A stretch of DNA of 64,000 nucleotides from an uncultured Bacillota bacterium. GTDB taxonomy: Bacteria; Bacillota; Clostridia; Oscillospirales; Oscillospiraceae. Shown here piece by piece: positions 40,530 through 42,937 of this stretch. The position numbers were made by a program, and so were the translations under genes. The stretch is from contig CAMWBA010000002.1 in the NCBI GenBank assembly GCA_947172355.1, forward strand, positions 1 through 64,000, given 5' to 3'. The notes beneath the pieces were generated by a model. That model was not told the origin of the DNA and did no database searches. It saw only the letters and a program-made list of their open reading frames with translations. Each line of letters starts with the position of its first letter. The first letter of the stretch is position 1.

Positions 40530-40722
40530 CCGCAAATTTATACAAAGATATGGCATGGTTACAGGGAAAACGCTGTGCGTTATACGGATAGTACGCCGGC
40601 GGTGTCCGGGCAGGCGGTGTGGTCCGGTTGCAAAACAATATGACTTGCGAAAGGGCGGTAGCCGTGGTATGATAGAAAAACAGGAAATATTCCCCCCTGA
40701 CCGCGGGAGAAAAGAGGATATT

Positions 40723-42393
40723 ATGAACAGTCAGACCACCAACCGCCGGGCCATCAAGGTCATCGGCCACCGCAATCCAGACACAGACTCCATCTGTTCC
40801 GCCATCGCCTACAGCCGGCTGAAAAATATTTTGGACCCGGAGCACCCCTGTAAGCCCTGCCGGGCAGGGCTGCTCAACCGGGAGACCGAATTTGTGCTGG
40901 ACTATTTCAACGTTCCGCTTCCACAGTTGTATACCGACGTCAGTCCCCACATCCGAGATGTGGACATCCGTCCGGCGGAGGGGGTGGATGGAGAGACCAG
41001 CCTGCGCCGGGCCTGGATGACCATGCGGGACCAGGAACTGGACACCTTGTGTATTGTGGACCAGGAGAAAAATTTACAAGGGGTCATCACCGTAAAAGAT
41101 GTAGCTACCGCCAATATGGACGGCCTGGATCCCCACGCCCTGGAAATTGCTAAAACCAGCTACCAGAATATCCTGGACATTCTGGACGGCACAGTTCTGG
41201 TGGGGGATGTGACGGGCAAGACGGTGGAAGGGCGCATTGTCATCGGCTCCGGCAGCGCCGAGCAGATTGAAAAGTCCATCTCGCCCGGGGATATTGTGGT
41301 GGTGAGTAACCGGGCGGAGAGTCTGCTGGCCGCGCTGGAGATGGATGCCGGCTGTATTATCGTGTGCGCCAGCAGCAAGGTATCCCGCACCATGCAGATG
41401 CTGGCAGAGGAGAAGGGCTGTATTCTGATCAGCACCGAACTGAGCACCTATGTATCCGGACAGGTGCTCAGTCAGGCGGCCCCCATCCGCCAGTACATGA
41501 CCCAAGGCAAACTGCTCACCTTTACCCTTCATACCCCGGTAGAAGAAGCCACCCGGGTGATGGCTACGGTGCGCTTCCGCTACTTCCCGGTGTTGGATGA
41601 CGACGGCAAGTACATCGGAGTTGTCTCCCGCCGGAATATGATGAATCTCCATAAAAAGCAGCTGATTCTGGTGGACCACAACGAGAAAAGTCAGGCGGCG
41701 GAAGGCATTGACCACGCAGAAGTGCTAGAGATTATCGACCACCACCGCATCGGCACCCTGGAGACGGAGGGCCCGGTGTATTTCCGCAATGTTCCGGTGG
41801 GCTGTACCTGCACCATCGTCTATCAAATGTATCTAGAGAACGGGGTGGAGATCGACGCCACTACCGCCGGACTGCTGCTTTCCGCCATCCTGTCTGACAC
41901 CTTGATGTTCCGCAGTCCCACCTGCACGCCGACCGATGAGCGTGCAGCTCGGGAACTGGCCAGGCTGGCCGGGGTGGACCTGGAGGAATATGCTGACAAC
42001 ATGTTTTCCCATGGCGGGGATGTATCCGGCAAGACAGCGGCGGAGGTGTTTAACGGGGACTACAAGATTTTTACCAGCGGAGATGTCCGTTTTGGTGTGG
42101 GGCAGGGCAGCTATATGACGGAGAAAAACCGAAAGGCTGCCCAGGCGCTGGTGGGCCCCTACCTGCCCGAAGCCCTGGCCAAACAGAGGCTGGACTATAT
42201 CTTTTATATGTTTACCGATGTGCGCAATTCCAATACCGAGCTGCTGATGGTGGGACCCGGTGCAGACGAGTTGGTGAAGAAGGCGTTCGGCGCGAGCGTG
42301 GAGCAGGGGATGGCCTTTTTGCCCGGTGTGGTCAGCCGAAAAAAGCAGATGATCCCTGCCCTCATTAACACCATTAAACAGGACCAGGAATAA
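40723..42393 (+). CDS. manganese-dependent (family II) inorganic pyrophosphatase with inserted CBS/DRTGG regulatory region
   Basis: KVIGHRNPDTDSICSAIAYSRL, EIIDHHRIGTLE (DHH), CBS-like segments around residues 90-130 and 290-330; ATG 40723 after AAAGAGGA. Confidence 0.92.
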   Translation: MNSQTTNRRAIKVIGHRNPDTDSICSAIAYSRLKNILDPEHPCKPCRAGLLNRETEFVLDYFNVPLPQLYTDVSPHIRDVDIRPAEGVDGETSLRRAWMTMRDQELDTLCIVDQEKNLQGVITVKDVATANMDGLDPHALEIAKTSYQNILDILDGTVLVGDVTGKTVEGRIVIGSGSAEQIEKSISPGDIVVVSNRAESLLAALEMDAGCIIVCASSKVSRTMQMLAEEKGCILISTELSTYVSGQVLSQAAPIRQYMTQGKLLTFTLHTPVEEATRVMATVRFRYFPVLDDDGKYIGVVSRRNMMNLHKKQLILVDHNEKSQAAEGIDHAEVLEIIDHHRIGTLETEGPVYFRNVPVGCTCTIVYQMYLENGVEIDATTAGLLLSAILSDTLMFRSPTCTPTDERAARELARLAGVDLEEYADNMFSHGGDVSGKTAAEVFNGDYKIFTSGDVRFGVGQGSYMTEKNRKAAQALVGPYLPEALAKQRLDYIFYMFTDVRNSNTELLMVGPGADELVKKAFGASVEQGMAFLPGVVSRKKQMIPALINTIKQDQE

Positions 42394-42461
42394 GCAGTTC
42401 TCGTCGGAGATAAAAGAGAACGCGGACATCCTGCCGGATACCCGCGTTCAGAAGGGAGTAC

Positions 42462-42875
42462 TTGCCCATAAACAAACCGTTGCTGGAAAGCTGTGTAGAT
42501 TCTTATGTCTCCGCCATGGCTGCCGCCTTGGAGACCGCCATTCAGCTAGGATGCCGGACCATTCTTACCTCCGGCCAGGCACAGAGTGCTCCGGCAGGCC
42601 GGGAGGTACTGCGGGAGGTAACCTTTCAAGCGGCAGGTCGGATTGACATTATGGAGGGAGCGGGAGTGACCCAAGAGAATATCCGGATGCTGCATGAGTA
42701 TACCGGTATTACCAGCTTTCACACCTCTGGACGGAGAAAAACGGTGGACAGCGGAATGCGTTACCGAAAGGATACCGTTTCGATGGGGCTGCCCAGGTTG
42801 TCGGAGTATGAGCTCTGGCAGGCCAACGAAGAGAAGATTCGGGCCTGTGCTCAAATTGTCCACAGGCTGCAATAG
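42462..42875 (+). CDS. internally truncated CutC-family protein (N-terminal strand joined to C-terminal half)
   Basis: KPLLESCVDSYVSAMAAA (CutC N-terminus-like) directly followed by LETAIQLGCRTILTSGQAQSA...GRIDIMEGAGVTQENIRML...FHTSGRRKTVDSGMRYRKDTVSMG (CutC C-terminal half); TTG start after AAGGGAG. Confidence 0.75.
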   Translation: MPINKPLLESCVDSYVSAMAAALETAIQLGCRTILTSGQAQSAPAGREVLREVTFQAAGRIDIMEGAGVTQENIRMLHEYTGITSFHTSGRRKTVDSGMRYRKDTVSMGLPRLSEYELWQANEEKIRACAQIVHRLQ

Positions 42876-42886
42876 CGAAAGACAGA

Positions 42887-42915
42887 ACCGGAGACGGCAA
42901 AAAGCGGTCTCCGGT
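42887..42915 (+). terminator. terminator-like hairpin after mini-CutC
   Basis: ACCGGAGAC...GTCTCCGGT arms, no strong T-tract. Confidence 0.5.
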
Positions 42916-42937
42916 CCTGCTTAAAAGACGGATGCGG

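Follow-up and report, generated by a model that had tools for sequence, protein, structure and literature searches.

We propose that the short open reading frame at positions 42462-42875 of the forward strand is very probably a recently inactivated cutC, that is, a pseudogene or near-pseudogene. The window (the whole 64,000-nucleotide stretch of DNA that was analysed) belongs to an Oscillospiraceae bacterium in which cutC is annotated for copper homeostasis, and whose assembly is a draft of 3.13 Mb in 275 contigs with an estimated completeness of 77%. The frame encodes 137 aa when read from a TTG at 42462 to the TAG stop at 42873-42875, or 135 aa from the homologous ATA codon, whereas intact orthologues with an assigned start measure 245-258 aa. 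The first-pass annotation had read it as a CutC that suffered an internal deletion in frame, and this is borne out by a collinear match to intact orthologues. A relative's full-length CutC recovers two ordered pieces from the window, both at 74% identity: an N-terminal piece covering its residues 2-20, with an E value of 0.05 taken alone, and a C-terminal piece covering residues 134-250 (E 1.6e-53). Intact orthologues of the genus align to the short frame in the same two-piece manner. Within the CutC family (PF03932; structures 3iwp, 1twd and 4r9x) the likeness consists of a clear C-terminal arm and an N-terminal arm that matches strand 1. The former, at 42522-42872 of the plus strand, runs from helix 5 to the C-terminus and includes strands 6, 7 and 8; it is 58-73% identical to close genus orthologues. 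The latter, at 42468-42521 of the same strand, comprises strand 1 and most of helix 1 (NKPLLESCVDSYVSAMA) as placed by alignment with relatives. The Pfam CutC profile meets ORF residues 16-90 with its positions 126-200 of 202 (E 2.5e-17), and residues 168-280 of human CutC 3iwp match the short ORF as well (phmmer, E 1.1e-19). The N-terminal match is not a coincidence, given the collinearity of the two pieces and the presence of the same pyrophosphatase gene upstream in several relatives.

Alignment to the full-length CutC of relative L002 places the gap at residues 19-133, a loss of 115 aa or 345 nt that takes away strands 2-5 together with the last part of helix 1 and the first part of helix 5. 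In the alignment with intact orthologues, residues 1-20 of the short form fall on the first strand and helix, and the next residues already belong to the beginning of helix 5. The deletion was therefore slightly larger than the roughly 100 residues first estimated, and the middle beta/alpha units of the TIM barrel are gone, as had been supposed, when the frame is set against the L002 alignment and model. The full-length, eight-stranded barrel of CutC is accordingly lacking. The conserved GG.TP, RPR and HRA.D motifs also fall inside the deleted part. The same is true of the second of two conserved cysteines, found in the CVDS and ELC motifs, which are assigned to the proposed Cu(I) site after human CutC. 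As the first cysteine is kept (residue 11) and the second is lost, the site is incomplete, and we infer that the short product would be able neither to form a CutC barrel nor to complete the proposed Cu(I) site.

The junction lies at 42519-42527 of the plus strand (GCT/GCC GCC/TTG), where 115 codons are missing relative to L002. The codons across the join read GCC ATG GCT / GCC GCC / TTG GAG in the window; close relatives carry, for example, GCC ATG GCC GCC GCC CGG on the left and TTT/TTC GCC GCC CTG GAG on the right, so that GCCGCC is present at both edges. Bacterial pseudogenes can arise by deletion between short direct repeats, and the present case resembles that class in having the repeat at both edges in relatives and a single copy here, in affecting a gene that is dispensable in relatives and in bearing an additional lesion at the start codon. 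It departs from the class in that the frame is still open and substitutions are hardly accelerated, which would make it young. A single deletion between two such short GC-rich repeats may have removed the 115 codons in frame; the edges fit this mechanism, which we infer from close relatives. The length of the loss, 345 nt, is divisible by three, and this, not selection for a mini-protein, would have kept the frame open. The full-length query recovers only the two flanking pieces from the assembly, and the missing middle segment was not found elsewhere in it, so that the idea of its lying at another place in the assembly was rejected; nor was a second cutC copy found in the assembly.

The start of the gene is damaged too. 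An ATA at 42468-42470 of the plus strand occupies the place of the ATG or GTG start that 52 of the 58 intact relatives have at the homologous codon, the remaining six starting within a few codons of it. A Shine-Dalgarno-like AGGGAG at 42453-42458 (plus strand), taken in the AGGAGG register, lies 8 nt before the ATA at 42468, the commonest spacing among relatives, and 2 nt before the TTG at 42462. The TTG chosen as start by the first-pass annotation (42462-42464, plus strand) corresponds to no conserved start codon among relatives. The claim that start codon and ribosome-binding site are intact thus fails: the homologous start reads ATA, the ribosome-binding site is spaced for it and not for the TTG, and the normal start has been lost or weakened. 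Damage to an expression signal is a mark of pseudogenes, although weak initiation at AUA may persist. Measurements in two Clostridium species put AUA and three other near-cognate starts at 5-20% of the expression from AUG behind one leader, and six alternative starts at 40-100% behind a second one; in E. coli, AUA-type starts stay well below 3% (PMC9680021). With AUA at 5-20% of AUG or better in these two species, the ATA lesion by itself may leave the gene active. Little product, if any, is probably made.

How widespread is this short form among relatives? CutC is present in 19 of 64 genus genomes, the host included. The other 18 copies all lie in long open frames, matched by the query from about residue 19-22 onward and also by a separate N-terminal piece where this is strong enough to score. 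In an alignment-based scan the named relatives are Oscillospiraceae, many of them labelled Lawsonibacter, Pseudoflavonifractor or Oscillibacter. Across the family, 64 of 401 genomes have a cutC match, in frames of about 244 aa or longer except for G450 and one marginal match in an 82-aa frame. The search for the same short form proposed earlier found it in none of the other genomes searched (64 from the genus, 401 from the family), so that the loss of a large conserved part, 115 residues, a further mark of pseudogenes, is unique to the host genome in this set. A separately broken cutC of the same family, at G450:C109:8065-8289, is interrupted by two stops, a TGA and a TAA, within the part that matches and is an independent loss.

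Upstream of the remnant lies a conserved neighbour, a gene of the DHH-DHHA2-CBS-DRTGG inorganic-pyrophosphatase type (40720-42393, plus strand; 92% identical to that of the closest relative). In several relatives cutC sits directly downstream of this same DHH-CBS pyrophosphatase gene; in several others, for instance G026 and G062, no significant cutC match follows it. The patchy occurrence of cutC, together with its absence after the shared neighbour, indicates that the gene has often been lost in the group, for which it would be dispensable. The site itself is variable, as the sequence after the pyrophosphatase gene differs among the genus genomes that do not have cutC (G026, G056, G062, G023 and G010).

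The retained codons bear few traces of decay. Their pN/pS against relatives, obtained from pairwise counts, is 0.25-0.37 and falls inside the range of intact pairs. Among sites conserved at 95% in 58 relatives, 2 of 43 are changed, a figure that 4 of the 58 intact genes equal or exceed. An early indication of strong relaxed selection, 5 of 52 invariant sites with 15 relatives, was dropped when it fell to this value with 58. CutC identity corrected for that of the pyrophosphatase neighbour gives a mean residual of -0.045, the lowest of 16 genomes, with one intact gene at -0.042. So little decay indicates that the lesion is probably recent; judged on codon patterns, it would fit equally well a protein that is still functional and under selection.

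The reading of the locus as a broken cutC is thus supported by the two-piece match, the GCCGCC edges, the ATA start, the uniqueness of the form, the patchiness of the gene, the want of a second copy and a poor predicted fold. Against it stand a frame without a stop, retained codons that are little relaxed and the possibility of translation from AUA. The first-pass annotation had left the choice between a fresh deletion and a functional half-barrel, and it is the fresh deletion that we favour. A half-barrel would consist of strand 1, a fused helix (1/5) and strands 6-8 in a small (beta/alpha)4-like arrangement, perhaps dimeric, with translation beginning at AUA or UUG. Its open frame, a pN/pS resembling that of intact genes, the moderate performance of AUA in some clostridia (PMC9680021) and the fused helix, which is continuous at residues 16-28 in the predicted model, speak for it. 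AlphaFold2, given relatives as the alignment, builds full-length L002 as an eight-stranded barrel (strands 5-10, 26-29, 56-59, 91-94, 119-123, 146-149, 175-178 and 198-201) with a mean pLDDT of 85.1 and a pTM of 0.83. For the short form, with a shallow alignment that limits the power of the prediction, mean pLDDT is 68.8, strand 1 stays below 50, and no confident half-barrel is predicted; the models disagree and spread over 46-69, compared with 80-85 for the full-length protein. The weakened start, the confinement of the form to the host among all genomes searched, and the loss of the GG.TP, RPR and HRA.D motifs with the second cysteine weigh further against a half-barrel, which we regard as improbable. 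Half-barrel (beta/alpha)4 proteins do exist, such as the halves of HisF, and the short form would likewise have about four beta/alpha units. It differs from them in being non-contiguous, strand 1 being joined to strands 6-8, in having no confident predicted fold and in having no relatives of like form.

An artefact of assembly or strain mixture is about as improbable. The join could have been made across the short repeat, or the contig could carry a minor-strain allele while the cutC of the population is intact, and the fragmented draft state of the genome lends some colour to this. A shared repeat of about 6 nt, though, is much too small for an assembly graph to collapse on it; the join is clean and keeps the frame, no copy of the missing segment turns up in the rest of the assembly, and the gene carries a further, separate lesion in its ATA start. 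We give slightly less credence again to a bolder form of the half-barrel reading, in which one deletion turned the eight-stranded barrel into a four-strand mini-protein that is still translated from AUA in a clostridial host, folded, perhaps dimeric, and keeps some function.

Hairpins flank the remnant on both sides. Between the pyrophosphatase stop and the remnant lies a strong 14-pair leader hairpin (42418-42449), terminator-like on the minus strand and then followed by TCTTTTATCT; leftward transcripts of the convergent acyltransferase gene may terminate on it. In relatives such as L003 and L004 the gap between the genes is too short to hold such a hairpin. It is present as a single copy in the host genome, and the idea of a repeated element was rejected on that ground. 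A second strong hairpin at 42876-42935 (-27 kcal/mol, z -5.65), 3' of the remnant and between convergent genes, is probably a terminator. Background on the locus elsewhere bears on one last reading. The sRNA MicL represses an outer-membrane lipoprotein, and such a target is not expected in this group of bacteria. That the remnant is retained for an RNA or regulatory role and not for protein, by analogy with the E. coli cutC locus, where MicL, encoded there, was found to account for the copper-sensitive phenotype of cutC mutants (PMC6538781), is very improbable in spite of the hairpins, as an Rfam search lent it no support (best E 0.14, far below the gathering score) and no promoter-like site was found.

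What does a broken cutC imply for its host? One author considers copper binding improbable for the CutC of a minimal mycoplasma (PMC4993169), and the copper role of CutC itself is uncertain, so copper-tolerance tests of the short allele would be hard to interpret. The locus carries a caution for annotation: an open frame with a TTG and a nearby ribosome-binding site resembles an intact mini-gene, and it is the relatives that reveal the lost start and the deletion. For the question of how a TIM barrel may be pared down, the locus would matter only if its product proved to be a folded half-barrel. As a recently inactivated gene, it would be a further example of the readiness with which Oscillospiraceae dispense with cutC, which is nothing unusual in a group where the gene is often missing.
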